From: Christiangramia gaetbulicola
GTDB taxonomy: Bacteria > Bacteroidota > Bacteroidia > Flavobacteriales > Flavobacteriaceae
Length of the DNA: 64,000 nt
Reading direction: 5' to 3'
NCBI RefSeq assembly: GCF_003054225.1
Contig: NZ_QBKQ01000001.1
Span: 124,001-188,000, forward strand
Shown here: positions 31,405 through 45,353 of the stretch, piece by piece
How the letters are laid out: every line of letters begins with the position of its first letter
How positions within the stretch are numbered: position 1 is the first letter of the stretch
Translations under genes and position numbers: made by a program
Notes under the pieces: generated by a model
Seen by the model: the letters and a program-made list of their open reading frames with translations, nothing else
Databases searched by the model: none
Told to the model about the DNA's origin: nothing

Positions 31405-31408
31405 AATC

Positions 31409-31421
31409 GTGACCTCGCCAG
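31409..31421. repeat. Left attachment repeat (attL)
   Basis: GTGACCTCGCCAG is identical to the tRNA-Arg 3' end at 45279-45291. The similarity continues imperfectly for 26 nt (22 of 26 matching from 31405 and 45275). This marks the left border of the island. Confidence 0.85.
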
Positions 31422-31525
31422 AACTTAAACAATTCTACTTCCGAAATTTATAAGAGATTGCTAATCTTAATTCAACCCTTGTATTTAGTACTCTTTCCAT
31501 AGATTATGGTTTATTATCCAGTCTA

Positions 31526-31542
31526 ATTTGATTGAATCAAAT
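31526..31542. promoter_or_regulatory. Palindrome upstream of the integrase gene
   Basis: ATTTGATT-G-AATCAAAT, 8-bp perfect arms, 100 nt upstream of the integrase start. Possible operator or recombination-accessory site; inferred from position. Confidence 0.4.
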
Positions 31543-31561
31543 CTAAAATAATTGAAGATTG

Positions 31562-31581
31562 GTGGACTAAATGTGGACTAA
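31562..31581. repeat. Left arm-type repeats GTGGACTAA
   Basis: GTGGACTAA at 31562-31570 and again at 31573-31581, an 11-nt period, between the left border and the integrase gene. The same motif recurs near the right border at 45181-45200. Typical of paired integrase arm sites. Confidence 0.55.
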
Positions 31582-31641
31582 GATGTTTAGCGAATTGTTT
31601 TTTGGATTACATTTAGCAGGTTTATCCTAACAATAAAGACT

Positions 31642-32958
31642 ATGGCAATTTCATTCTACATTCAATCCAAGAATAACCCTGCTCCAATTTATGTTAGAGT
31701 TAGAGAAGGACGTTCAGTTGATGCAAAATCAAAGACCGGATTAGTAATAGATCCTCAGCACTTTCAAAAGAATAAGATTAAAATTATTAGGATGATTGCA
31801 GGCGCTGATGCTGAAACGAAGAAAAACATTCAGGTTCAGAACGATGAACTGAATAAACTTCAATCTAAACTGGATGAAATACGTACTTCAATCAGTACTG
31901 CCTTAAATAATCGACAAGATTATGAAACCATCAATTCTGACTGGTTAAAGGATATTATTAATCCCAAGCAGGATTTAGAGATACCGAACCAACTAACTGA
32001 ATTCTTTGATTTCTATTTACAAGCGCGCAGAGGAGAAATTGCTGGGAGTACGTATAAGAAACTGAATACAACCAAAAATAGATTCTCAAAATTCCAAAAT
32101 GATTATAAGGTATTACATATTCAGGAAGTCAATAAATCGGTAATTCAATCTTTTAAGAAATGGTGTACAGATAAATATGATTACAATACTATGCTCGGTT
32201 CTATAAAGAATCTACTAACGGTGTTAAATTATGCAAAGGAAAACGGACTGCCTGTTCATCCTGAGTATGAGTATATAACCAAAGGTATGAAGTATAAGAA
32301 GCATGAAAGAATCTATTTATCCTTAGAAGAAATTGAACAGATTAATAGCACCAAAATATTGAACAAAGACCTTGACGCAGCGAAAGACTGGTTGGTTATT
32401 AGTTGCTACACTGCTCAAAGGGTATCAGATTTCCTGAACTTCAAGAAGAAAGATGTTACCCTACATTTGAAAGATGGAGTTGAAATCCCCTGCCTTACTA
32501 TCACACAAAAGAAAACTGGAAAACCTGTCGGACTCCCCTTAGCTCCTCCGGTAATGAAAATACTCAATAAACGTAATGGTAATTTCCCGCCAACATTTTC
32601 TACCGATCCAAATAGCAATGCAACCTTATATAATAGATTGATCAAAGATGTTTGTAGGCTTGCAGGATTAAAGCAGAAGGTTGAGGTTATGCGCAAGACT
32701 GGAAAAAACAAATTATATGAAAAGAAAACGGTCGCAAAGTATAAAGCAGTTACCAGCCATATTGGAAGGAGATCATTTGCAACCAATTATTATGGTAAAA
32801 TAGCTACCCCTTTGCTACTGGATGCTACCGGTCATTCAAGCGAAAGACAGTTTCAAGCCTACGTTGGAAAGCCACCACATCACAATATCAACATTTTGTA
32901 TGATGGGATCGTTAGGATATACAAGGAAACGAAGAAGAAGATTAAGAAAACAGCATAG
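31642..32958 (+). CDS. Tyrosine integrase of the island
   Basis: 438-residue site-specific recombinase of the Bacteroidota phage-integrase type: N-terminal arm-binding domain, SAM-like core-binding domain (TEFFDFYLQARRGEIAGSTY about 110-200) and a catalytic domain. All catalytic residues are visible: Arg260 in TAQRVSD, His373 and Arg376 in HIGRRSF, His398 in TGHSSE and nucleophile Tyr407 in QAYVG. It starts 221 nt inside the left border and its recombination would use the tRNA-Arg repeats. It overlaps by one base the downstream gene that starts with GTG. Confidence 0.93.
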   Translation: MAISFYIQSKNNPAPIYVRVREGRSVDAKSKTGLVIDPQHFQKNKIKIIRMIAGADAETKKNIQVQNDELNKLQSKLDEIRTSISTALNNRQDYETINSDWLKDIINPKQDLEIPNQLTEFFDFYLQARRGEIAGSTYKKLNTTKNRFSKFQNDYKVLHIQEVNKSVIQSFKKWCTDKYDYNTMLGSIKNLLTVLNYAKENGLPVHPEYEYITKGMKYKKHERIYLSLEEIEQINSTKILNKDLDAAKDWLVISCYTAQRVSDFLNFKKKDVTLHLKDGVEIPCLTITQKKTGKPVGLPLAPPVMKILNKRNGNFPPTFSTDPNSNATLYNRLIKDVCRLAGLKQKVEVMRKTGKNKLYEKKTVAKYKAVTSHIGRRSFATNYYGKIATPLLLDATGHSSERQFQAYVGKPPHHNINILYDGIVRIYKETKKKIKKTA

Positions 32959-33917
32959 TGAAAAAGCTATTCTTCTCTGATTACCGGAACGTTTATTCTG
33001 ATTCAGATGTTTTCCTTATGATTCAACACCTAATCAAAAAGGAATGCGATATTGATATACCTTTAAAACGTATGGCAATTGCTGAATTGATCAAACATAT
33101 CAATTCTTCAACATTACTAAGCAAAACCCTTGATTTAGTTATCGACTTTGATTTGTTTGATGGATTCACCTTCTTAAATAATGAACTAATATCTAATGTG
33201 GATTTTGATTCTTACAGCGATTCAGATCGTATTAAGATCAAAGCTATAAGCTTTTCAGAAGCTATCTTATTCAATCTTTACCTCGGCAGGTTAGGATTTA
33301 AACAAGATCCCAATTTAGTTCTCCAACTAAACTATGGGAAGGATTATGTTGAATCCAACTATGACGAGATCTATTCTTATACCAAACGTAAAGTATATTC
33401 TGGTCTACTTACCCATTTTGGTAATCAACCTGAGGAAATAAAACAGGATTTCTACAAAAAAGCCTTATCATCCATAGCTCAATTAGACTATGAAAATGCT
33501 ACAAATACTTTTTCAGAGGAAAAGCAGCTATTTAGAGATCTAATCAATCCAATTGCCATGGTAGTCAGACAAGATAATTTTCCTGAAATCCCAATTTCGA
33601 CCAATTCATATCCGAAGATATTTTTAGGAACGGATGATAAAGGTTATCAGCTTTTCAGGGAGTTTGTAAATCTGACACAAATTAAGGAACATAAAGATTG
33701 GAGCTTTTTTTTTCAGTTTCTATTAAAGGACGAAATAATTTGGCCTATAAAGCATAGTACCTTTGTTGATTGGCTTTACTCGGAAGGATATGTAAATCAG
33801 GATTTCTGTGATGAATTTGAACAAAAAAGGAACTTTACTTCGCTTAAAAAGGTCAAAGGAAACGCCTTACTTAATACCTACAAACAGCTTAGAAAGAAGC
33901 ACTTCGGGAATTACTAA
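32958..33917 (+). CDS. Hypothetical protein following the integrase
   Basis: 319 residues, starting with GTG directly at the integrase stop (TAGTG), so translationally coupled. Mostly helical and charged, for example VYSDSDVFLMIQHLIKKECD and SSIAQLDYENATNTF; no catalytic motif. The C-terminal half (TFVDWLYSEGYVN, NTYKQLRKKHFGNY) is basic and may bind nucleic acid or protein. Genes of this kind often follow integrases in Bacteroidota elements and may be accessory recombination factors, but that is a guess from position. Confidence 0.6.
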   Translation: MKKLFFSDYRNVYSDSDVFLMIQHLIKKECDIDIPLKRMAIAELIKHINSSTLLSKTLDLVIDFDLFDGFTFLNNELISNVDFDSYSDSDRIKIKAISFSEAILFNLYLGRLGFKQDPNLVLQLNYGKDYVESNYDEIYSYTKRKVYSGLLTHFGNQPEEIKQDFYKKALSSIAQLDYENATNTFSEEKQLFRDLINPIAMVVRQDNFPEIPISTNSYPKIFLGTDDKGYQLFREFVNLTQIKEHKDWSFFFQFLLKDEIIWPIKHSTFVDWLYSEGYVNQDFCDEFEQKRNFTSLKKVKGNALLNTYKQLRKKHFGNY

Positions 33918-33948
33918 TATGATGTTAATAATTTACTGATCATTTTCC

Positions 33949-33956
33949 TATATTTG
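33949..33956 (+). promoter_or_regulatory. Candidate -7 box of the type I RM operon
   Basis: TATATTTG fits TAnnTTTG, 36 nt upstream of the hsdM start. It suggests that the restriction operon has its own promoter and is not driven from the integrase gene. Confidence 0.5.
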
Positions 33957-33992
33957 GGCAACGCCCTACCGTTACCAAATTAAAACCAATCA

Positions 33993-35555
33993 ATGTCCGA
34001 AGATCAGAAGAAAGCGCTGGAAACCCAGCTATGGAATATTGCCAACGAATTACGTGGTAAGATGGATGCCGATGAATTTAGAGACTATATTCTCGGCTTT
34101 ATTTTTTACAAATACCTATCAGAAAAGCAGCACCTATACGCTAACAAGCTGCTTGAAACCGAAACAGTTAAAGAATACATCAAGATCAAGGAAGAAGAAA
34201 TCCTTGATGTGATCAAAGAAGAATCTGTTTTAAAGCTTGGTTACTTCCTAAGGCCAGAGGAACTGTTCACCGCTATGGCTGAAAAAGGTAATGCCGATGA
34301 GGAAGTAGAGGATAACTTTATTCTGGAAGACCTTCAAAGCGTTCTGAACAATATTGAGCAAAGTACAATGGGTACTGAAAGCGAGGAAGACTTCAACAAA
34401 CTGTTTGAAGACCTCGACCTCAACAGTACCAAGTTAGGGAGAAGCCCTAAAGCGAGGAACGAATTAATCGCAAAGGTACTTGGCCATCTGGATCAGATAG
34501 ACTTTAAATTGGATGATGCTGATAGCGATATACTTGGAGATGCCTATGAATATCTGATAGGACAATTCGCCAGTGGTGCGGGAAAGAAAGCAGGAGAATT
34601 CTATACACCTCAGCAGGTTTCCAAGATTCTTGCTAAGATTGTTACCAGTGGAAAGAACAGATTGAAAAGTGTTTATGATCCTACCTGTGGATCTGGATCT
34701 TTGTTGCTTCGGGTAGCGAAGGAAGTGAAGGTTGATGATTTTTATGGGCAGGAATTAAATCGTACCACCTACAATCTTGCCCGGATGAATATGATTCTTC
34801 ACGATGTACATTACAGGCACTTCGATCTGCAACAGGAAGACACCCTGAAAGAACCTCAGCATTTGGAAGAACGATTTGAAGCTGTTGTTGCAAATCCACC
34901 TTTTTCTGCAAAGTGGGCAGGAAAGAAAAACCCACTGTTTGAAAATGATGAACGCTTTAGCCAGTATGGAAAGTTAGCGCCAAGCAGCAAGGCCGACTTT
35001 GCTTTCGTACAGCATATGATCTACCAGCTTGCTGAAAATGGAACAATGGCATGTGTGTTACCACATGGGGTGCTATTTCGGGGATCTGCGGAAGGCACGA
35101 TTAGAAAATATCTGATCGAGAAACTAAATTATCTGGATGCCGTGATCGGCTTACCCTCTAATATTTTCTACGGAACAGGAATTCCAACCTGTATTCTGGT
35201 AATAAGTAAATGCCGGGTGAATGATGATAATATTTTGTTCATAGATGCTTCCGAAGGATATGAAAAGGATGGCAACAAGAACAAATTAACCGAAGCCCAT
35301 ATTGAAAGAATCATAGACACTTATCGCAACCGAGAAACTATTGAGAAATATAGTTATGTAGCCGGTTTGGAGGAGGTGAAGGAGAACGATTATAACCTGA
35401 ACATTCCAAGATATGTAGATACCTTTGAGGAAGAAGAACCAGTGGATCTTGATTCTGTTTCATTAGAACTAAAACGGATTGGAATGGCCTTGAATGAGAA
35501 TGATGAGAAAGTAGTTGGATTTTGTAAAGCATTAGGAATCGCAACTCCCTTTTAA
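33993..35555 (+). CDS. hsdM: Type I restriction-modification methyltransferase subunit
   Basis: 520-residue N6-adenine methyltransferase. The N-terminal HsdM_N domain starts with KKALETQLWNIANELRGKM. SAM-binding motif I is DPTCGSGSLLLR (about residue 229) and the catalytic motif is VVANPPFSA (about 301, NPPF). QFASGAGKKAGEFYTPQQV is the conserved HsdM block. It forms the M2S1 methylase with HsdS and protects host sites. First gene of a five-gene unit; hsdS follows 2 nt later. Confidence 0.95.
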   Translation: MSEDQKKALETQLWNIANELRGKMDADEFRDYILGFIFYKYLSEKQHLYANKLLETETVKEYIKIKEEEILDVIKEESVLKLGYFLRPEELFTAMAEKGNADEEVEDNFILEDLQSVLNNIEQSTMGTESEEDFNKLFEDLDLNSTKLGRSPKARNELIAKVLGHLDQIDFKLDDADSDILGDAYEYLIGQFASGAGKKAGEFYTPQQVSKILAKIVTSGKNRLKSVYDPTCGSGSLLLRVAKEVKVDDFYGQELNRTTYNLARMNMILHDVHYRHFDLQQEDTLKEPQHLEERFEAVVANPPFSAKWAGKKNPLFENDERFSQYGKLAPSSKADFAFVQHMIYQLAENGTMACVLPHGVLFRGSAEGTIRKYLIEKLNYLDAVIGLPSNIFYGTGIPTCILVISKCRVNDDNILFIDASEGYEKDGNKNKLTEAHIERIIDTYRNRETIEKYSYVAGLEEVKENDYNLNIPRYVDTFEEEEPVDLDSVSLELKRIGMALNENDEKVVGFCKALGIATPF

Positions 35556-35557
35556 CC

Positions 35558-36814
35558 ATGGAAACAATAATTAATAGTAAATTAAAAATACCACAATTGA
35601 GGTTTCCAGAATTTGAAGACGAATGGAATGTTCATAAAATTGAAGATACCTTTTCAATTTTCAATGGTTACGCCTTTTCAAGTTCTGATGCTGTCAAAGA
35701 AAACGGTATAATATGGGTGAAAATAGCTGATGTGGGAATAAATAGAATGAAGAGGGATAACATATCCTATTTACCACCAGAATTTCTTAAGAAATATGAA
35801 AAATTCGTATTAAAAGAGAATGACTATGTCATTGCCCTAACTCGTCCAATACTCAGTGGAAAATTGAAGATTGCTCGAATTAATAGTTTTTTTAATAATT
35901 CACTTTTAAATCAAAGAGTAGGAAAAATAGTTACCCATCACAACTCTCGCTTTATTTTCAATCTTTTACAAAATTCAAAACTTATTAGCAAAATTGAAAA
36001 TAATATAGCAGGAAGTGATCCACCCAACCTTTCCGCTAAAGAAATTAAAAATATCAAAGTTTTTTTGCCAAATGCTTTCGAACAACAAAAGATTGCGTCT
36101 TTCCTTGCGACCGTTGATAAACGAATCAATTTACTGGAACAGAAAAAAGCTAAACTGGAAGAATACAAGAAAGGCGTAATGCAGCGGATCTTTAGCCGAG
36201 AAATTAGGTTCAAGGATGAGAATGGGAAGGAGTTTCCAGAATGGAATAAAACAAAATTAAAGGAGGTTCTTACGGAACATAAAAAGAATAATGAAGAAGA
36301 TAAATATGATGAAGTTTTTTCTGTATCAAAATCAAAAGGCGTTATCAATCAAATAGATCATCTTGGTAGATCCTATGCTGCTAAATCGATAAGTCATTAC
36401 AAATTGGTTTTTCCATTTGATATTGTTTACACTAAAAGCCCTACATCTGAATTCCCTTTTGGAATTATTAAACAAAACCTTACTGGTAGAACAGGGGTAG
36501 TTTCCACCCTATATGCAGTTCTAAAGCCTAAGAATCAACACTTAGGTTATATAATACATTCCTATTTCAATTCGTGGGTTAAAACATATAATTACCTAAA
36601 TCCTTTAGTTCAGAAGGGAGCTAAGAATACCATGAATATCAATAATAAAACCTTTTTAGATGGCAAACCTATTTCCTTACCAACTTCTGAGAAAGAACAG
36701 GAATTAATATCAAGGTTTCTTGAAGCACTTGATAGAAAAATTTTAGTTCTGAATAATCAAATAGAAACTTCTAACAAATTTAAAAAAGGCCTATTACAGC
36801 AGATGTTTGTATGA
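35558..36814 (+). CDS. hsdS: Type I restriction-modification specificity subunit
   Basis: 418 residues with two target-recognition domains (about 10-185 and 215-400), each beginning near an LRFPEFEDEWN or KEFPEWNKTKL segment, separated by the conserved helical spacer KIASFLATVDKRINLLEQKK and closed by a second spacer QELISRFLEALDRKILVLNN. The first TRD should read the 5' half-site and the second the 3' half-site; the recognised sequence cannot be deduced. Codon and base use are A/T-rich, as usual for exchangeable specificity genes. Overlaps the next gene by 4 nt. Confidence 0.92.
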   Translation: METIINSKLKIPQLRFPEFEDEWNVHKIEDTFSIFNGYAFSSSDAVKENGIIWVKIADVGINRMKRDNISYLPPEFLKKYEKFVLKENDYVIALTRPILSGKLKIARINSFFNNSLLNQRVGKIVTHHNSRFIFNLLQNSKLISKIENNIAGSDPPNLSAKEIKNIKVFLPNAFEQQKIASFLATVDKRINLLEQKKAKLEEYKKGVMQRIFSREIRFKDENGKEFPEWNKTKLKEVLTEHKKNNEEDKYDEVFSVSKSKGVINQIDHLGRSYAAKSISHYKLVFPFDIVYTKSPTSEFPFGIIKQNLTGRTGVVSTLYAVLKPKNQHLGYIIHSYFNSWVKTYNYLNPLVQKGAKNTMNINNKTFLDGKPISLPTSEKEQELISRFLEALDRKILVLNNQIETSNKFKKGLLQQMFV

Positions 36815-37974
36815 GTGAAACGAATGCAACTATAATTAGCGAAAATCAATTAACCGATCAGATCGATACCCGCTATGTTTTTTCTTACGGAAACATACCA
36901 TATATCGAGGACGCCATTATTGATTATGAATTTAAGTTACCGATATATCAAAAGGTCTTGATTGAAGACCTGACAGGAACTAAATCAACCCACGATCTCT
37001 ATTTCATGGATTGTAATTTTGAAAAGAAAGTAAGAGTGGAAGATTATGAAGGTTTACTATATTTTGATCGCTGCACATTCAATTCCTTTGTTGATCTTGC
37101 GAACACAAATTTTCATAGCAAAATAAGGTTTAGACAATGTATCTTCCATGGGGAAGTTTACTTCAACAATACTACCTTTCATGATCTTGCCGATTTTTGG
37201 CGATGTAAGTTTGAAAAAAGAACGAGTTTTTTTAAAACAGATTTTTTAGCCACGACCGTATTTTCAGGATCCATATTCAAAGAGAATGCTCTTTTCACTT
37301 ATTCCCAAATTGAAAAGTTATTGATATTACGAAGAACAACTTTCATACAAGGGTTAGACCTATCTCTTGCAAATATTAACGGAGATTTAAAATTGTTTGA
37401 CATTCAATTAGATGATTTTAAAAGTGTTGATAATATGCCCGAAACCATTGAATATGAAGAAGGTTTAGAAGAAAAAGGCGAAATTTATACAGCCAACAAA
37501 CGGGAAACCTTTAGATTGATAAAACACATTTTCCAAAGCAATAATGATTCGGTCACTTCTCAGAAATTCTCGCTGTTAGAAAGTATAACACACAGGAAAG
37601 AAATATGGTTTCGCTTGAATCATGATTTTAGGTCGAAAGATCTCTGGGATTATATTTTATTAACCCTTAACCGGTTTTCGAATAATCATAAAACCTCCTA
37701 CATCCGGGGTTTTGCATTTACTATTTTTTTAGGATTATTTACTTTCATTTTCGTAGCCTGGTCTTCCAAAACTTATGAACCAGCGACAAATTTTGACCAA
37801 TTTGATTTTGGCTTGGCTGTTTCACATTTTGTTCAATTTCTAACACCAACCCACAAATTTGACTATATCGATGAAAACCCATCAGGCCAATTTTATCTTC
37901 TCGACTTTTTGGGAAGAATAATTATTGCCTACGGAATTTATCAAACAATTCAGGCATTCAGAAAATTTAGATAG
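36811..37974 (+). CDS. Pentapeptide-like membrane protein inserted in the hsd operon
   Basis: 387 residues. Residues about 60-200 show the quasi-repeats of a pentapeptide beta-helix with a phenylalanine every fifth position (FDRCTFNSFVDLANTNFHSK, IRFRQCIFHGEVYFNNTTFH, CKFEKRTSFF). The C-terminal 110 residues contain two hydrophobic helices (IRGFAFTIFLGLFTFIFVAW about 300-325 and LDFLGRIIIAYGIYQTI near the end). It overlaps hsdS by 4 nt (ATGA) and is 2 nt from the next gene, so it belongs to the operon. Its role is unknown. It could be a membrane anchor or effector linked to the restriction system, or cargo captured by chance. Confidence 0.7.
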   Translation: MSETNATIISENQLTDQIDTRYVFSYGNIPYIEDAIIDYEFKLPIYQKVLIEDLTGTKSTHDLYFMDCNFEKKVRVEDYEGLLYFDRCTFNSFVDLANTNFHSKIRFRQCIFHGEVYFNNTTFHDLADFWRCKFEKRTSFFKTDFLATTVFSGSIFKENALFTYSQIEKLLILRRTTFIQGLDLSLANINGDLKLFDIQLDDFKSVDNMPETIEYEEGLEEKGEIYTANKRETFRLIKHIFQSNNDSVTSQKFSLLESITHRKEIWFRLNHDFRSKDLWDYILLTLNRFSNNHKTSYIRGFAFTIFLGLFTFIFVAWSSKTYEPATNFDQFDFGLAVSHFVQFLTPTHKFDYIDENPSGQFYLLDFLGRIIIAYGIYQTIQAFRKFR

Positions 37975-37976
37975 TT

Positions 37977-39080
37977 ATGTATCGGATTAATAAAGATAAA
38001 AATAATATCGCCAAGCTTGAAGAACGGCTTTTCAGTGATCTTAAAATCAGGGAAAGAGAAAACCTGCAAGAATGGATAGCCAAGAATCCAGATATGTTAG
38101 GAGAAGACCTGCTAATCATTCAAAAGGAATTTGATGGCTTTAATGACACCCACGAACGCTTGGATCTCTTAGCAATCGATAAGGAAGGTGGTTTGGTTAT
38201 TATTGAGAATAAACTTGATGATACGGGGAGAGATGTGGTCTGGCAAGCTTTGAAATACACCTCCTATTGCTCTACTCTAACCAATCAGCAGATAATCAAG
38301 ATATATCAATCATATTTAAATTCTTACGAAGGTGGTGGAAACGCCAAAGAGAATCTACTTGAATTTTTAGAAAGAGACGAGGAAGATCTATTACTGAACA
38401 AGAATGATCAAAGGATAATTTTTGTTGCTAATAAATACAGGAAAGAAGTTACCTCAACTGTTCTTTGGTTATTAGCTCACGACATCCAGATTCAGTGTTT
38501 TAGGGCAATTCCTTACACTATGGCTGATGAAGCTTTCCTACAAATTGAGCAGATCATACCTCTTCCTGAAACCAGAGAATTTATGATTGATGCAATGGAA
38601 AAGGAAAAGGAAGAACGGAGTAAATCAATGGCAGTTGCAGAAACAGAAGCAAGAATGTTGGATCTATGGACTAAATTAAAACAGCGCCTGAGTGATCAAA
38701 ACATTAACTACTTAGACAGAGTTAGCGCTAAACATTATTTCGATTTAGGATTTAGCAAAGGTTCAGGGCGTTTTGCCTTTTGTGTTGGACGAGATTCAGT
38801 TAGAGTAGAATTATATTTCTCCAATGATCCTGAAAAATTGTTAATAGATGAAATGTCTAAACACAAAGAAAAGATTGAACAGCAATTTGGCAATGAATTA
38901 GTATTTGAAAGACTGGATGGAAAGAAAGCTTCCAGAATAAGATACGATAGACCAATAAGCCCTAATGAGAATTATTCAGTAAGCGAAAATAGGGATGAAT
39001 ACATTGACTGGTTCATACCTACCATGAAACAATTTTATGAAGCCACTTATCCCATCTTAGAAAAGGTTCAAAATAATTAA
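37977..39080 (+). CDS. DUF4268 protein with a PD-(D/E)XK-like nuclease site
   Basis: 367 residues. The N-terminal half carries ERLDLLAIDKEGG and VIIENKLDDTG: Asp63 followed by Glu77-Asn78-Lys79, the layout of the PD-(D/E)XK (NucS-like) nuclease core. A following QALKYTSYCSTL is the usual helix. The C-terminal third resembles DUF4268 (AKHYFDLGFSKGSGRFAF, WFIPTMKQFYEATYPIL). No helicase or methylase motif. The gene lies between the pentapeptide-like gene and hsdR, 2 nt and 11 nt away, so it is cotranscribed with the restriction system. Function: a putative DNA-cleaving accessory, inferred. Confidence 0.72.
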   Translation: MYRINKDKNNIAKLEERLFSDLKIRERENLQEWIAKNPDMLGEDLLIIQKEFDGFNDTHERLDLLAIDKEGGLVIIENKLDDTGRDVVWQALKYTSYCSTLTNQQIIKIYQSYLNSYEGGGNAKENLLEFLERDEEDLLLNKNDQRIIFVANKYRKEVTSTVLWLLAHDIQIQCFRAIPYTMADEAFLQIEQIIPLPETREFMIDAMEKEKEERSKSMAVAETEARMLDLWTKLKQRLSDQNINYLDRVSAKHYFDLGFSKGSGRFAFCVGRDSVRVELYFSNDPEKLLIDEMSKHKEKIEQQFGNELVFERLDGKKASRIRYDRPISPNENYSVSENRDEYIDWFIPTMKQFYEATYPILEKVQNN

Positions 39081-39091
39081 GTCCTTATTTA

Positions 39092-41929
39092 ATGCCCCAA
39101 CCAGAACATATTTTAGAACAAAACCTGATCAAACAACTTCAAGACCTTAAATATGAAAAGGTCTTGATCAGAGATGAAGATGATCTACTTTCTAACCTGA
39201 AAAAGCAGCTTGAAAAGCATAACAAGACCGAGCTATCAGAACTTGAATTTAAGCAGGTATTAAACAAGCTTACGAAGGGAAACATTTTTGAACGTGCAAA
39301 GATCCTACGTGATAAGGTAGACTATGCTAAAGACAATGGAGATACCGGCTATCTGGAATTGATCAATCAGGTACATTGGTGCAAGAATGAATACCAGGTT
39401 ACCAACCAGATCAAAATGGAAGGTAAATACAAGAATCGCTATGATGTTACCATCCTGATCAACGGTCTTCCACTCTGCCAGATCGAACTAAAAAGGCGTG
39501 GTTTGGAAATGAAGGAAGCTTTTAACCAGACTAACCGTTATCAAAGACACAGCTTTCAGGCCGGAAAGGGTTTGTTCCAGTATATCCAGTTGTTTGTAAT
39601 CAGTAATGGGGTAAATACGAAGTATTATGCCAATAATCCAATCAAGGCAAGAACCTTCAAACAGACTTTCTTTTGGGCAGATAAAGAGAATAAAAAGATC
39701 ACGCAACTAAGCGACTTCGCTGAGGTTTTTCTTGAACCCTGCCATCTTTCAAAGATGATCACGAAGTATATTGTTTTGAATGAAAGTCAGAAGATCCTTA
39801 TGGTACTTCGCCCCTATCAATATTACGCTGTTGAAGCAATTGTGGAAAGGGTTAAAAATAGCAGGAAGTTTGGTTATATATGGCACACAACCGGATCAGG
39901 TAAAACCCTAACCTCGTTCAAAACAAGCCAAATCCTTACCAATTTGCCAGAAGTAAAGAAAGTGGTCTTTGTAGTTGATCGTAAAGATCTGGACTACCAG
40001 ACCATTAAGGAATTCAACCACTTTAGTGATGGCAGTATAGATGGAACAAACGACACCAAGTCTTTGGTTAAGCAATTCAACGATGATACCAAGATCATAG
40101 TCACCACTATCCAGAAATTGAATACAGCCATTCACAAAGATCGTTACCGGAATAAAATGGAACGGTTCAGGAACGAAAGAATGGTTTTCATTTTCGATGA
40201 ATGCCATCGAAGTCAGTTCGGAGATACCCACCAAAGGATCAAAGACTACTTCCAAGATGTTCAGATGTTTGGTTTTACCGGAACACCAATATTTGCTGAT
40301 AATGCAGTCAGGAACGAGTTAGGTAAACGAACAACCAAGGAACTATTTGATAAATGCTTACACAAATATGTAATTACAGATGCGATCCGGGATGGCAATG
40401 TTTTAAAATTTGCAATCGAATATATCAGAACTTTTAAAAAGAAAGAGGAAGTCGTTGATATAGATGTGGAGTCTATTGATAAGGCTGAGGTTATGGAAGC
40501 ACCGCAACGGCTCGAAGGAATCGTTGATTACATTATCGCAAATCATACCCGTAAAACGCATAATAAGCGATTTACTGCAATATTTTGCGTTCCGAATGTG
40601 AACACCTTAATCGAGTATTACAAGCTGTTTAAAGCGAAAAAATTGAACGGAGATCATGATCTCAAAATAGGAACGATATTTTCCTATCAGGCCAATGAAG
40701 AGGATGCCGATGCCACCGGAATCGTAGAAACAGATCCGGGTGATATGCAGATGGCTGCCGAAGATCAGGAAACCTATGAAACCAAACATAGCCGGGAACA
40801 TCTGGAAGATTTTATTAAGGATTACAATGAAATGTTTCAAAGAAACTACTCTACCAACGATTTTTATGGCTATTACAAAGACATAGGAAAGCAGGTTAAA
40901 AATCAGCAATTGGATATTCTACTGGTTGTTAATATGTTTCTTACAGGATTTGACAGTAAAACCCTGAATACGATATACGTAGATAAGAACCTTCGCTATC
41001 ATGGATTGATTCAGGCCTATTCCAGAACAAATAGGATCCTGAACGAACTGAAATCTCAAGGGAATGTTGTTGCTTTTAGAAACCTGAAAAAACGGACAGA
41101 TGAAGCGATCACCTTATTCTCAAATAAGGATGCAATTGAAGATATTATTCTACAACCCTATGAGAATTACGTTGCTAAATTTGATGCTGCTATCAAACGA
41201 TTACTGGAAATTACCCCAACCGTTGATAGTGTAAATGATCTACCTTCTGAAAATGAAGAATTTGAATTTGTAACGGCATTCAGGGAACTACTTAGGATCA
41301 AGAACGTACTTAGTACTTTTACCGAATTCACCTTCTGTGATCTGGACATAAACGAACAGACCTTTGAAGATTATAAAAGCAAGTACTTAGATATCCGGGA
41401 TAAGGTTAGAAACGATAATAGTAAAGAACAGGTTTCTATACTGGACGATATAGATTTTGAGGTAGAGTTAATTCATAGAGATGAAATCAACGTGGTTTAT
41501 ATACTTACTCTACTTGCTGAACTCAAAGATTCAAAACCAAGCGAACAGGCAAAGAAAAGGAAACAGATCTCAGATTTGATGGCTTCTGAAACTCAATTGA
41601 GAAGCAAGAAAGAATTGATAGAACGCTTCATATCCGAAAACCTTCCTTTAATAACCGATAGGGAAAACATACCGGAAGAATTTGAAAACTTCTGGACTGT
41701 GGAGAAAATGAAAGCTCTCGAAGATCTAAGTATCAATGAAAATCTTGATCAGGAGAAATTAAACAAGCTAATCGCCAATTATCTATTCACAGAGAAGCAG
41801 CCACTTAGAGATGAGGTGATTGATACAATGAAGGAAAAGCCAGGTCTAAGAGAGCGAAAGAAATCTTCTGAGAGAGTAATTGACAAGATCAAAGGTTTTA
41901 TTGAAACCTTTATTAATGGAATGGGTTAA
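39092..41929 (+). CDS. hsdR: Type I restriction endonuclease subunit
   Basis: 945 residues. The N-terminal nuclease domain has an ExK-type site in LCQIELKRRGLEMKEAF (about 130) preceded by RYDVTILING. Two RecA-like motor domains follow: Walker A IWHTTGSGKTLTSFK (about 266), DEAD-type VFIFDECHRSQFG (about 369), motif III GFTGTPIF, and motif VI QAYSRTNRILNE. The C-terminal helical domain serves to bind HsdM. The subunit translocates DNA and cleaves non-methylated DNA. It closes the hsd operon; a terminator follows at 42047-42076. Confidence 0.95.
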   Translation: MPQPEHILEQNLIKQLQDLKYEKVLIRDEDDLLSNLKKQLEKHNKTELSELEFKQVLNKLTKGNIFERAKILRDKVDYAKDNGDTGYLELINQVHWCKNEYQVTNQIKMEGKYKNRYDVTILINGLPLCQIELKRRGLEMKEAFNQTNRYQRHSFQAGKGLFQYIQLFVISNGVNTKYYANNPIKARTFKQTFFWADKENKKITQLSDFAEVFLEPCHLSKMITKYIVLNESQKILMVLRPYQYYAVEAIVERVKNSRKFGYIWHTTGSGKTLTSFKTSQILTNLPEVKKVVFVVDRKDLDYQTIKEFNHFSDGSIDGTNDTKSLVKQFNDDTKIIVTTIQKLNTAIHKDRYRNKMERFRNERMVFIFDECHRSQFGDTHQRIKDYFQDVQMFGFTGTPIFADNAVRNELGKRTTKELFDKCLHKYVITDAIRDGNVLKFAIEYIRTFKKKEEVVDIDVESIDKAEVMEAPQRLEGIVDYIIANHTRKTHNKRFTAIFCVPNVNTLIEYYKLFKAKKLNGDHDLKIGTIFSYQANEEDADATGIVETDPGDMQMAAEDQETYETKHSREHLEDFIKDYNEMFQRNYSTNDFYGYYKDIGKQVKNQQLDILLVVNMFLTGFDSKTLNTIYVDKNLRYHGLIQAYSRTNRILNELKSQGNVVAFRNLKKRTDEAITLFSNKDAIEDIILQPYENYVAKFDAAIKRLLEITPTVDSVNDLPSENEEFEFVTAFRELLRIKNVLSTFTEFTFCDLDINEQTFEDYKSKYLDIRDKVRNDNSKEQVSILDDIDFEVELIHRDEINVVYILTLLAELKDSKPSEQAKKRKQISDLMASETQLRSKKELIERFISENLPLITDRENIPEEFENFWTVEKMKALEDLSINENLDQEKLNKLIANYLFTEKQPLRDEVIDTMKEKPGLRERKKSSERVIDKIKGFIETFINGMG

Positions 41930-42046
41930 TCGAATTAAATTTTGATTTAATTTTGACTGTTGAAATTCTATATGTGTTTAAGGGAATTTCAAATCTGTTT
42001 TTAAGTTGCCTTTATTCTGTTTTGAAGGCATTTTAATTTCTGTTTA

Positions 42047-42076
42047 AACCTTGTCAGCCAACTGACAGGGTTTTTT
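42047..42076 (+). terminator. Terminator behind hsdR
   Basis: AACCtTGTCAG pairs with CTGACAgGGTTTTTT over CCAA, followed by a T-run. Stem has one or two mismatches. Confidence 0.8.
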
Positions 42077-42141
42077 ATTTCTATTGATTTCTTCTGCTTT
42101 CCGAGAATCGGAATAGACCGCTATTAATAGGAATCGAATAT

Positions 42142-42155
42142 GGCAAACATTTGCC
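42142..42155. promoter_or_regulatory. Palindrome upstream of the excisionase-like gene
   Basis: GGCAAA-CA-TTTGCC, perfect 6-bp arms, 25-38 nt upstream of the ATG at 42180. Together with the next element it makes a compact control region. Confidence 0.5.
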
Positions 42156-42177
42156 GGTATAAACTTAAAATATACCG
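42155..42177. promoter_or_regulatory. Inverted repeat directly before the excisionase-like start codon
   Basis: CGGTATA (42155-42161) and TATACCG (42171-42177) are perfect complements over a 9-nt spacer, ending 2 nt before the ATG. It may be an autoregulatory operator or an excision site. Confidence 0.5.
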
Positions 42178-42179
42178 CT

Positions 42180-42470
42180 ATGTTACAATCAACAATTCTT
42201 CACAACACAAGTCCAGAAGACTTAATTAATCAATTGGTTACCATCTTAAAAAAAGAAATCCAAGACCTCAAACAAAACTTTCAACCAAAACAGCCAGAGG
42301 AATACCTAACCCGGCAGCAAGTAGCAGAATTACTTAAAATAGATAAAAGTACTGTTCACAATCACGTAAAAAAAGGTGTTTTAAAACAATATGGGATAGG
42401 AGGAAAAGTCTATTACAAGAGAAGCGAAATTGAAGCCGGAATGATTCCTTTATCGCCTTTATCTAATTAG
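42180..42470 (+). CDS. Helix-turn-helix protein, excisionase-like
   Basis: 96 residues. The C-terminal half is a MerR/excisionase type winged HTH: EYLTRQQVAELLKIDKSTVH and NHVKKGVLKQYGIGGKVYYK, the pattern of HTH_17 proteins. The N-terminal 40 residues are helical and charged. Such small genes control excision of Bacteroidota integrative elements together with the integrase. Two palindromes immediately upstream suggest self-regulation. It precedes by 29 nt a putative replication initiator gene. Confidence 0.85.
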   Translation: MLQSTILHNTSPEDLINQLVTILKKEIQDLKQNFQPKQPEEYLTRQQVAELLKIDKSTVHNHVKKGVLKQYGIGGKVYYKRSEIEAGMIPLSPLSN

Positions 42471-42499
42471 TATTCGAAAGGTATTAATTTTTTGAACTT

Positions 42500-43462
42500 A
42501 TGAAATTAGATACTGTTCAATTAACCACCTCTGTTGATTATTTAAGGGAATTTGATAAAAACAAATTCTATGAAAACGATATAACCAGAAGGAATAACAA
42601 TATTAAATGTCATTCTCTTGATAACAAACCTTGGGGATTAGAAACGTTATCAATCAATGAAACCTCTGGAAGCATTATTATGAAGGTGAATAGTAAAATT
42701 TTAGGTAAGGATTATTCCAAATCGATTCAACTGAACACATTAGATCAGGTTTTAAACAGTTTGAATCAGACCGGGATTAAATTAGATCCAAGCTTTCTGG
42801 ATGATGCAGCAGTTAGGGAAATTCATGCAACTGATGATATAAGGGTTTTTGATCCTGTTGCAAGCATTTTAGCTTTTCAACATCTACTTGCCCCTAAATT
42901 TATTAAAACAGCCTATGACCACGAAGGAATTGTTTTTAAGGAAAGAATTCTTCAAGGCCTATATACTACTGTATATAACAAGTTTTATCAAATGAGTAAG
43001 GATCGTAAATTTTTCAAACAAAATCCTTTTCTTGCCAAACAGTTTGAGAATATGCTAAGGATTGAATCTAAGCTTACAAGAGCCAATTTAATCAACAAAT
43101 ACACTGGCGGTGGATCCTTGCCTGAAATTTTATCAAGAGATAGTCCAAATGGTGTAATACTCAACAAGATTATTGCAGGGCAAACTTTATATAAACCGGA
43201 TCTATTACACAATCTAAGCTGGAAAGATCAGAAGGATATTGGAATTGCTAAACTTTTATTCGAGCATTACAATGGTAATTTTGAATTAATTAAAGAACAT
43301 CTACGAAATCAAGTGGGGAAGAATACTAAACCCAATTACTTATTTAATCAATACAAAGCAGCCTGTTTTAAACTATTAAATATTGAGAATCCTAATATGT
43401 TTGATTCTGTTCTGGAAGTATTAGCTGCATTAAATAATAATAACATTGAAGCAGCGGCATAA
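42500..43462 (+). CDS. Putative rolling-circle replication initiator (gene II/X-like)
   Basis: 320 residues starting MKLDTVQLTTSVDYLREF. The DTVxL opening, the middle block VYNKFYQMSKDRKF (K/YxxYxKxxE-like) and LRIESKLTRANLI are reminiscent of the phage/plasmid replication protein family that includes filamentous phage gene II. The Tyr-rich stretch GLYTTVYNKFYQM could hold nicking tyrosines. The likeness is from memory and the protein could also be an unrelated DNA-binding factor. Directly behind the excisionase-like gene, which supports an element-maintenance role. Confidence 0.5.
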   Translation: MKLDTVQLTTSVDYLREFDKNKFYENDITRRNNNIKCHSLDNKPWGLETLSINETSGSIIMKVNSKILGKDYSKSIQLNTLDQVLNSLNQTGIKLDPSFLDDAAVREIHATDDIRVFDPVASILAFQHLLAPKFIKTAYDHEGIVFKERILQGLYTTVYNKFYQMSKDRKFFKQNPFLAKQFENMLRIESKLTRANLINKYTGGGSLPEILSRDSPNGVILNKIIAGQTLYKPDLLHNLSWKDQKDIGIAKLLFEHYNGNFELIKEHLRNQVGKNTKPNYLFNQYKAACFKLLNIENPNMFDSVLEVLAALNNNNIEAAA

Positions 43463-43640
43463 AAGCTAAAACATTTTAAGAGAACGGGATTTTTGGTCTA
43501 CCCATAGGCTGAGAATTCCGTTTTTCCATTCTGAATTTTCATAATCAATAATAGCATTCAGCCTTTCCCTTGACCGGAAGTACCTTTTTTAAATTTTTAA
43601 TCTGGGGAAGTTTTATTGAGTTAAGAATACTTGAATTAAT

Positions 43641-43648
43641 TAGATTTG
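43641..43648 (+). promoter_or_regulatory. Candidate -7 box of the DUF3800 module
   Basis: TAGATTTG fits TAnnTTTG, 23 nt before the ATG at 43672; a TTG lies at 43616-43618. It supports independent expression of the two-gene module. Confidence 0.5.
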
Positions 43649-43671
43649 ATGTTTGAAAGAAAGTATTAATT

Positions 43672-44385
43672 ATGGATACACAAAACTTTGACATCTTTAT
43701 CGATGAAAGTTGCCATTTAGAGAATGACCATAAAAGTGTTATGGGGATAGGATACTGTAAAGTTCCACAAGTAGATTATGATACTTTGAAAACTCAAATA
43801 CACCAAATCCTTATCAAACATAATCAATATGCTGAATTAAAATGGAATAAGTTTTCCACTTCCCGCTTAGATCTTTATAAAGAGTTGGTGGATTTTTTCT
43901 TTCAAAGTTCAATGGAGTTTCGTGCCATTCTTGTTAAATATAAGGATAGACTTAATCATGAAGATTTCAATCAAGGGTCGCACGATAACTTTTATTATAA
44001 AATGGTTTATTTCTTATTAAGACCAAATGGAGAAGATGCTAATAAACAATTTAGAGTTTTCATTGACCTAAAGGACACAAGAGGCAGGGAAAAACTGAAT
44101 AAGATTAGGGAAGTTTTCGATAATGCCCACAAAGGGGAGTCTCCATTTATCTACTTTCAACACATACAATCTCATGATAATATATTCCTCCAAATAGCAG
44201 ATTTCTTTATAGGAGCTGTAACCTATAAGAGTCGGATGGCATCAGATGAATTTATACCAACTGAATCAAAACTTGAATTCATAAATTATCTGGAAGATGT
44301 TTCTGGTTTTAGCTTAAACGAAGGAACAGCCCCTTGGGAAAAGAAATTCAACATATTTGATCACCAGCCAAAAAAAAGAAATTAA
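43672..44385 (+). CDS. DUF3800 protein (RNase H-like)
   Basis: 237 residues. The DUF3800 pattern is clear: FDIFIDESCHLE at the N-terminus with the catalytic-type Asp and Glu, LVKYKDRLNH and FRVFIDLKDTRGREKL with a second Asp, and IQSHDNIFLQIADFFIGAV near the C-terminus with a third acidic position. These features place it with RNase H-like enzymes often found in defence islands. It overlaps the next gene by one base. Substrate unknown. Confidence 0.82.
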   Translation: MDTQNFDIFIDESCHLENDHKSVMGIGYCKVPQVDYDTLKTQIHQILIKHNQYAELKWNKFSTSRLDLYKELVDFFFQSSMEFRAILVKYKDRLNHEDFNQGSHDNFYYKMVYFLLRPNGEDANKQFRVFIDLKDTRGREKLNKIREVFDNAHKGESPFIYFQHIQSHDNIFLQIADFFIGAVTYKSRMASDEFIPTESKLEFINYLEDVSGFSLNEGTAPWEKKFNIFDHQPKKRN

Positions 44386-44873
44386 TGGATTTATTCGATC
44401 TGGATGATCTAATACCTTCGCTTGGCATAGATCCTACTGATGAACACCTCGAGGAATTATACGAAACGTTTAAACAGGATTTTGTAATTACTAATTATTC
44501 TATCGATGGATTTGATGTTAAAATTGATTTAGCAGATTCTAAGGAAGATGGTTTTGAGAATTACCCACATACATTTGTGAAATTAATTACTCGAGGAAAA
44601 AAAGGAAAAAGAGTTTTTGATAGAAAAAGAGCCAATAAGATTCATTGGATTAAAGTTATACTTGAGAATAGACACACAGAGGATATTCTTTGTTTCCAAT
44701 ACAAGGAAGGGAACGGATCTATACGAGATTATTTCTGGTTTAAAGAAGGTGATTATTTGGTAATTATGGAGAAAATTACTCCTAACTATATAATTATCTC
44801 AGGTTTCCATATAGATGATGAAAGAAACCGTAAATACTACCAGAAAAGATTAGATAATTGTGTAAAAAAATAA
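44385..44873 (+). CDS. Hypothetical partner of the DUF3800 protein
   Basis: 162 residues, starting in the stop codon of the DUF3800 gene, so tightly coupled. A short acidic N-terminus (MDLFDLDDLIPSLGI) precedes a compact beta-rich domain: RANKIHWIKVILENRH, ILCFQYKEGNGSIRDYFWF, YLVIMEKITPNYIIISGFHI and a basic C-terminal helix KYYQKRLDNC. The His/Lys/Arg-rich strands and terminal helix suggest a small ribonuclease-like fold of the BECR type (RelE/barnase-like), but this is only a shape impression. Probably acts with DUF3800 as a two-gene defence or addiction unit. Confidence 0.55.
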   Translation: MDLFDLDDLIPSLGIDPTDEHLEELYETFKQDFVITNYSIDGFDVKIDLADSKEDGFENYPHTFVKLITRGKKGKRVFDRKRANKIHWIKVILENRHTEDILCFQYKEGNGSIRDYFWFKEGDYLVIMEKITPNYIIISGFHIDDERNRKYYQKRLDNCVKK

Positions 44874-45180
44874 AGCCACAAATTACGGTATTGTGGCCAA
44901 CCAGGTCCTTTTCCCTCTGGGAAATGACAAGACAAATATAAGCATATACTTACCTAAACATAAAATACATTAACATTTTTTTCTGATCAAGGTTAAAATT
45001 GTATCTATTGTTCTATAATTAATAATCTTAATTTCACACCACTCTATTTTGATTTTTCCCAACAATACACCTTGAATCCATCAGTCTTCTAAGTACTTTC
45101 CAATTATTTGCAATTCTAAAATTGCTATATTTTGTTTACGTGCGAGAATTTTTGCCAATAATACTGTCCAGAAATCAATT

Positions 45181-45200
45181 GCGGACTACCGGTGGACTAA
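45181..45200. repeat. Right arm-type repeats GCGGACTAC / GTGGACTAA
   Basis: GCGGACTAC at 45181-45189 and GTGGACTAA at 45192-45200, the same 11-nt period as at 31562-31581. They lie 79 nt inside the right border. Confidence 0.55.
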
Positions 45201-45225
45201 ATTTGGAAAGTTTATTAGAATAAAA

Positions 45226-45260
45226 AAGCGCAACCTCTTCATATATAGATGATTGCGCTT
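45226..45260 (-). terminator. Present terminator of tRNA-Arg, carried by the island
   Basis: AAGCGCAA / TTGCGCTT stem over a 19-nt loop, followed on the minus strand by a T-run. It restores transcription termination behind the tRNA after integration. Confidence 0.7.
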
Positions 45261-45278
45261 AATATTAAAATTCAAATT

Positions 45279-45291
45279 GTGACCTCGCCAG
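45279..45291. repeat. Right attachment repeat (attR) inside tRNA-Arg
   Basis: GTGACCTCGCCAG at the 3' end of the tRNA gene, identical to 31409-31421. Integration here rebuilds the intact tRNA. Confidence 0.85.
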
Positions 45292-45353
45292 GATTCAAAC
45301 CTGGAACCTTCTGAGCCGTAATCAGATGCGCTATTCAGTTGCGCCACGAGGCC
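45280..45353 (-). tRNA. tRNA-Arg (anticodon ACG)
   Basis: 74 nt on the minus strand. Acceptor GGCCTCG pairs with CGAGGTC (one G-T), D stem GCGC/GCGC, anticodon stem TCTGA/TCAGA with loop TTACGGC (anticodon ACG), T stem CCAGG/CCTGG with loop TTTGAAT, discriminator A. No CCA is encoded. It is intact although its 3' end is the integration site of the island. Confidence 0.95.

Follow-up and report, generated by a model that had tools for sequence, protein, structure and literature searches.

A type I restriction-modification (RM) operon with two extra genes between hsdS and hsdR was analysed in Christiangramia gaetbulicola (Flavobacteriaceae; assembly GCF_003054225.1). It lies in a stretch of 64,000 nucleotides (contig NZ_QBKQ01000001.1, positions 124,001 to 188,000), hereafter the window, whose own coordinates are used throughout. 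The five consecutive genes, all on the + strand, are spaced by 2, −4, 2 and 11 nt, the overlap (ATGA, 4 nt) being that of hsdS with the first extra gene, and the block is thus as drawn in a preliminary description of this DNA. We call the gap between hsdS and hsdR the slot, and the first extra gene, which encodes a pentapeptide protein with two predicted transmembrane (TM) helices, PPM. Other loci and genomes carry L and G numbers. The window proteins were scanned against Pfam, PADLOC and NCBIfam, with family matches reported at an expectation value (E) of ≤ 0.01. The operon and its parts are the following:

33993–35555, + strand: hsdM, type IC-like methylase subunit (TIGR00497 at 476 bits, over the cut-off; N6_Mtase; NPPF motif)
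35558–36814, + strand: hsdS, specificity subunit (Methylase_S; PADLOC Specificity_I)
36811–37974, + strand: PPM, predicted pentapeptide beta-helix and two-TM membrane protein, 387 amino acids (aa) (Pentapeptide_3; AlphaFold2 model)
36883–37425, + strand: beta-helix region of PPM, about residues 25–205
37699–37968, + strand: predicted membrane region of PPM, with TM1 (297–318), a short helix (330–344) and TM2 (359–386) (AlphaFold2 helices)
37977–39080, + strand: DUF4268 protein, 367 aa (PADLOC candidate PDC-S11; DUF4268)
38037–38519, + strand: NucS/EndoMS-like PD-(D/E)XK domain, residues 21–181 of the DUF4268 protein
38640–39077, + strand: DUF4268 domain, residues 222–367, with a YbjN/secretion-chaperone-like fold
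39092–41929, + strand: hsdR, restriction/translocase subunit (EcoR124_C domain; over the TIGR00348 cut-off)
42046–42073, + strand: terminator-like stem-loop with a 12-bp stem and a T run, 116 nt 3′ of hsdR (pattern scan; no proof of function on its own)

By sequence, the hsd genes form a type IC-like RM system: HsdM is of the TIGR00497 kind, with the SAM motif DPTCGSG also visible in its translation, HsdS is present, and HsdR combines the EcoR124_C domain with nuclease and motor motifs that were intact in a pattern check (D..IELK, QxxRY, GSGKT and DECH). Given the short intergenic gaps, it is fair to infer that the five genes are co-transcribed. The terminator scan returned 10 sites on both strands against 6.1 expected, and since weaker + strand sites lie within PPM, the DUF4268 gene and hsdR, it neither proves nor excludes a single transcript.

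The association of PPM with hsd genes is recurrent in Bacteroidota, and PPM is not there by chance. A scan with a five-member PPM alignment identified 27 loci, all in records with Bacteroidota names. PPM lay between hsdS and hsdR in 18 of them and, as two open reading frames (ORFs), after hsdR in L106; no hsd gene was seen in the other eight, four of which (L083, L101, L102 and L107) are near contig ends. Among 19 different slot copies, including that of the window, 16 directly followed hsdS. Embedded and other copies were separated on the PPM tree by two changes, compared with a mean of 11.5 after shuffling, and PPM co-diverged with HsdR and HsdM (Mantel r of 0.62 and 0.55, respectively; 0.15 with HsdS). 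Sporadic insertion of PPM was rejected on the basis of the 18 slot loci, the slot survey below and the clustering on the tree. Searches with PPM alone against genome contigs and against plasmids gave no useful lead, nor did viral sequences, where one distant locus was found.

A search of other hsd operons for the same gene order, as proposed in the preliminary description, found hsdM-hsdS-PPM-DUF4268 once more, in Mesohalobacter halotolerans (L108), where DUF3800 and Fic genes follow before hsdR. Because the order recurs there, and PPM without DUF4268 stands in the slot of 17 further records, it is not due to chance. The DUF4268 gene accompanies PPM in only two of the 19 different slot copies (the window and L108). 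Thus, the earlier idea of a type I operon enlarged by one membrane protein and another putative nuclease holds, whereas that of a fixed pair, or a fusion of two defence systems, does not. Since the window and L108 PPM are 30% identical, and the nearest relatives of the latter (L066 and L104) have no DUF4268 in the slot, PPM and DUF4268 probably came together more than once.

The slot was surveyed across the HsdR lineage. Of 395 genomes of the class, 50 had an HsdR match at E ≤ 1e-100, and the survey comprised 30 close-lineage loci, the window included, with an HsdR identity of at least 55%. One more genome, G115, whose HsdR pieces fall on two contigs, was left out; L093, L095, L096 and L105 were dropped from the comparison as lying on the same contigs as L063–L066; L131 and L142 were not assessable; and L141, whose hsdR is broken, was counted as filled. 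The slot held at least one gene in 24 of the 28 assessable operons. PPM was the commonest cargo family in this class sample (5 of the 24 filled slots), and DUF4268 occurred in three. Twenty cargo proteins from the surveyed and other named loci were scanned against Pfam and ten against PADLOC. The families identified were Abi_2/AbiD, a PDDEXK_4 nuclease (PDC-S26), an SpbK-like TIR, Fic (PDC-S24), GIY-YIG/DUF4357 (PDC-S14), REase-ARP, DUF3800, helix-turn-helix (HTH), integrase, and weak SduA-like (Shedu) and Mrr_cat matches; the slot protein of L121 was judged by eye to be DUF262/GmrSD-like. These extra genes are co-oriented with the hsd genes and recur in related operons. The best explanation is that the slot has long taken up additional genes, and that many of these are defence genes. 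As a separate observation, L131 shows part of an arrangement of inverted hsdS copies with an integrase.

The DUF4268 protein matches the PDC-S11 model, one of the PADLOC guilt-by-embedding candidates, at residues 1–366 (E 3.9e-137), and Pfam DUF4268 at 67.7 bits (cut-off 27). It resembles PDC-S11 over its full length and differs in following a second cargo gene; it shares a nuclease domain likeness with NucS/EndoMS, from which the C-terminal DUF4268 domain sets it apart. The PD-(D/E)XK residues D63, E77, K79, Q90 and Y94 (D..ExK, QxxxY) are intact and conserved among relatives. Neither a sequence search of the PDB nor one of viral sequences gave a useful lead. Among plasmids, 11 of 359 records with a match were read: DUF4268 lay between hsdS and hsdR in seven and elsewhere in four, two of which matched about half of the query. 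Embedded copies without PPM occur on plasmids of Vibrio, Shewanella, E. coli, E. fergusonii, Klebsiella and Paracoccus. In Bacteroidia, 24 of the 395 genomes had a DUF4268 match of any strength. All eight strong homologues (E ≤ 7.9e-80) had hsdM or hsdR in the same stretch, three being in the slot and two directly after hsdR, and the weaker homologues L076, L077 and L081 had no hsd match in the stretches examined. Confinement of DUF4268 to RM loci was ruled out by the plasmid and Bacteroidia copies apart from hsd. Two further observations concern this family. On a Shewanella aestuarii plasmid (L170), which also carries qnrS2, Fic and DUF4268 share the slot. Elsewhere in the C. gaetbulicola genome (G000:C2:4603-5031; L079, L001), a 142-aa ORF matches DUF4268 positions 1–138 of 140 and leaves no space for a nuclease part.

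The AlphaFold2 model of PPM (mean confidence score, pLDDT, 88.3) consists of a beta-helix followed by a TM-helix-TM unit. In a Foldseek search of the PDB, HalA, the channel of the Hailong system, was the sole match at E ≤ 0.001; for the membrane region, the hits to Kv and KcsA channels were weak (E over 1), and a viral structure library gave no match at E ≤ 0.001. In the VIA comparison, HalA and the hormone receptor 7fih (root-mean-square deviation 10.8) were the only rows reaching PPM residue 387, other relatives of the membrane part being possible. Nothing in PADLOC-DB v2.0.0 or NCBIfam matched the window PPM, and the NCBIfam HalA model (cut-off 250 bits) did not do so even at E ≤ 10. That model weakly matched 7 of 26 PPM relatives (best E 4.7e-4) and matched 199 of the 395 genomes, the best listed matches falling mainly at positions 45–130, the pentapeptide part. 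An hhalign comparison of the whole PPM profile with HalA likewise aligned the pentapeptide part only, and for the C-terminal half a profile comparison with a single true HalA sequence revealed no kinship. A screen of 545 ORFs from 28 loci found nothing HalB-like (best E 0.064), and a Sulfitobacter control locus does have HalB. Searches for HalA in viral sequences and phages gave no useful lead. PPM as the HalA of a Hailong system was thus ruled out by the absence of HalB from the loci screened, of a HalA-model match and of C-terminal kinship. We retain the likeness, which derives from a predicted model, as one of architecture: PPM sits with hsdMSR, no HalB partner was found, and beyond the pentapeptide region no sequence kinship was detected. 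Separately, a wider family of 445–577-aa pentapeptide proteins in the same phylum (L067, L082, L113–L117, L010 and L011) shares the C-terminal membrane region of PPM by profile comparison; this region had no convincing Pfam match, and the L067 stretch yielded no HsdR.

Other slot cargo offers a view of possible coupling to the restriction enzyme. A family with four slot members (L087, L106, L126 and L139) shares the motif RGDISH, which fits the HEPN motif pattern RxxxxH. Two of them, L087:8855-9913 and L106:4570-5706, both between hsdS and hsdR, end in a copy of the HsdR C-terminal domain (residues 265–342, E 3e-15, and 292–365, E 6e-11, respectively, with their own HsdRs left out of the profile; the best E among reversed-ORF controls was 0.46). 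The L126 and L139 homologues lack this copy. The L087, L106 and L139 proteins had no Pfam match, and that of L087 had a weak PADLOC LeoA match (E 2.3e-5). A weak relative of the L087 protein (27.5% identity over half its length, E 1e-5) in Sinorhizobium meliloti pSymA (L208) is annotated as an ‘abortive infection family protein’; its gene follows a hypothetical gene in the interval from hsdM to hsdR. A 2018 study by Grinkevich and colleagues, going by its title, reportedly gives a novel domain in the motor subunit of EcoR124 a role in assembling the complex and binding DNA; we take this domain to be the C-terminal one. The terminal copies make docking on the methylase plausible for some slot cargo, and the L087 and L106 effectors may dock in the manner of HsdR. 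Among 1052 ORFs, PPM and DUF4268 proteins were not among the matches to the HsdR C-terminal profile, which ruled out such a docking domain on either.

The operon rides on a 13.9-kb integrative island (window 31409–45300) at a tRNA-Arg gene. Its other features are listed below:

31409–31430: left attachment site, core GTGACCTCGCCAG (direct repeat)
31642–32958, + strand: tyrosine integrase (Phage_integrase, Phage_int_SAM_5)
32958–33917, + strand: 319-aa protein encoded 3′ of the integrase gene (no family match at E ≤ 0.01)
42180–42470, + strand: HTH_17 protein (Pfam; similar small HTH genes stand near hsd in L064, L065 and L098)
42500–43462, + strand: 320-aa island protein (no family match at E ≤ 0.01)
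43672–44385, + strand: PDC-M04A candidate (DUF3800; PADLOC E 7.9e-80)
44385–44873, + strand: PDC-M04B candidate (PADLOC E 4.2e-64)
45278–45300: right attachment site, at the 3′ end of tRNA-Arg (direct repeat; tRNA call)
45279–45353, − strand: tRNA-Arg

The ends are marked by a 26-nt direct repeat with 85% identity (31405–31430 and 45275–45300), whose 13-nt core GTGACCTCGCCAG occurs in the window only at 31409 and 45279. A clean empty site is found in the same-genus genome G732 (L216), where the flank up to 31430 abuts the flank from 45278 with a 23-bp overlap, and the island sequence had no match in the five same-genus stretches compared (L215–L219). PDC-M04A and PDC-M04B at 43672–44873 constitute a second candidate defence pair on the same island.

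Our preferred reading, at roughly even odds (a probability of about 0.5), is a layered defence encoded by one transcript, with cargo genes able to act without HsdR. It draws on the filled slots of this HsdR lineage, the slot tenancy and co-divergence of PPM, its HalA-like model, the conserved catalytic residues of DUF4268 and the published cargo TgvAB and DarTG2. As the first layer, HsdMSR would methylate self DNA and cut unmethylated DNA. The DUF4268 protein, as a NucS-like nuclease, would most likely attack invading DNA in a way different from restriction. PPM would be a membrane effector of last resort, most likely opening a pore as infection proceeds and thereby causing growth arrest or cell death. 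Standalone PPM and DUF4268 genes favour such autonomy, and the tight association of PPM with hsd favours coupling; the extra genes may, but need not, form part of the RM mechanism itself.

Several observations weigh against a layered defence. In the window PPM, hydropathy flags TM1 only, and in the VIA comparison HalA ranks 11th, with unrelated beta-helix enzymes and tailspikes near the same Z. PPM does not need embedding, since it stands alone in L086, L097, L100 and L109, with at least 3 kb on either side without hsd. The PPM tree omits L102 and L106, and, of the seven rows that it counts as standalone, L083, L101 and L107 are near contig ends; shared host ancestry may explain part of the Mantel correlation. 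Cargo is dispensable, as 4 of the 28 slots are empty, and 9 of the 20 cargo proteins had no Pfam match at E ≤ 0.01; many lack a known family. Inverted hsdS copies and a tyrosine integrase fill 4 of the 24 occupied slots (L130, L132, L137 and L141), which suggests specificity switching rather than defence cargo. Finally, tgvAB of Vibrio cholerae alone gave 10- to 100-fold less protection against several phages than the whole cluster (PMC11411939).

The best-surviving alternative, although unlikely, is that PPM, held shut by the HsdMSR complex, opens once restriction has been inhibited or overwhelmed by a phage. PrrC in the type IC operon EcoprrI would be a precedent, the window HsdM and HsdR being EcoR124-like; the co-divergence of PPM with both subunits and the HsdR C-terminal copies on the HEPN-like proteins of L087 and L106 also point this way. 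However, no such copy was detected on PPM or DUF4268, and at least four PPM loci lack hsd genes. Slightly behind it, and also unlikely, is the view that the slot merely tolerates insertions, because genes there stay transcribed, and that PPM and DUF4268 have no defence role here. The wide variation in slot content, integrases with inverted hsdS copies included, is consistent with such passengers, whereas the rank of PPM among cargo families, its recurrent association clustered on the tree and the conserved catalytic residues of DUF4268 argue otherwise. More speculative still, and doubtful, is that PPM is a HalA-like channel gated by the type I machinery instead of HalB, opening the membrane when it senses either the DNA that restriction leaves behind or the loss of HsdMSR under phage blockade, with HsdR C-terminal copies as a general means of attaching effectors to a type I methylase; if true, the slot would connect DNA-cutting immunity with a switch for membrane killing. 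A two-gene system in which PPM is gated by a DNA ligand that the nuclease produces or removes is very improbable: poly-dA synthesized by HalB blocks HalA, PPM has a HalA-like architecture and the two genes are adjacent in the window and L108, yet DUF4268 rarely stands beside a slot PPM, was mostly without PPM in the loci read, and the 28 loci screened showed no HalB-like gene.

PrrC proteins combine an ABC-type ATPase with a HEPN domain, and the Pfam, PADLOC and NCBIfam scans detected neither in PPM or DUF4268. Full-text searches, whose reach excluded the 2024 preprint on guilt by embedding and the majority of subscription articles, turned up no account of PPM as hsd cargo. Defence cargo inside hsd operons is already published, and the PPM family is an addition to it. 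In EcoprrI, a type IC system, the product of the embedded prrC gene stays sequestered within the complex until inhibition of EcoprrI by T4 Stp activates it (PMC3874165, PMC12707154). The operon studied here is alike in housing a putative effector gene among type IC-like hsd genes, but PrrC is a tRNA (anticodon) nuclease, whereas PPM is a predicted membrane pore. TgvAB of the V. cholerae island VPI-2 and DarTG2 of enteropathogenic E. coli are also accessory defence genes inside type I RM operons. TgvAB still protects with HsdR inactivated (PMC11411939), and DarTG2, like PPM, lies between hsdS and hsdR, at a site described as a potential recombination hotspot (PMC12255303). Their families, a GmrSD-like type IV enzyme and a DarTG toxin-antitoxin, differ from PPM and DUF4268. 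PPM adds a membrane-pore-like family to what type I restriction operons are known to carry, and makes testable the question whether hsd-embedded genes are merely parked or are physically and logically coupled to the restriction enzyme, on which the HsdR C-terminal copies of the HEPN-like slot proteins offer a direct handle.

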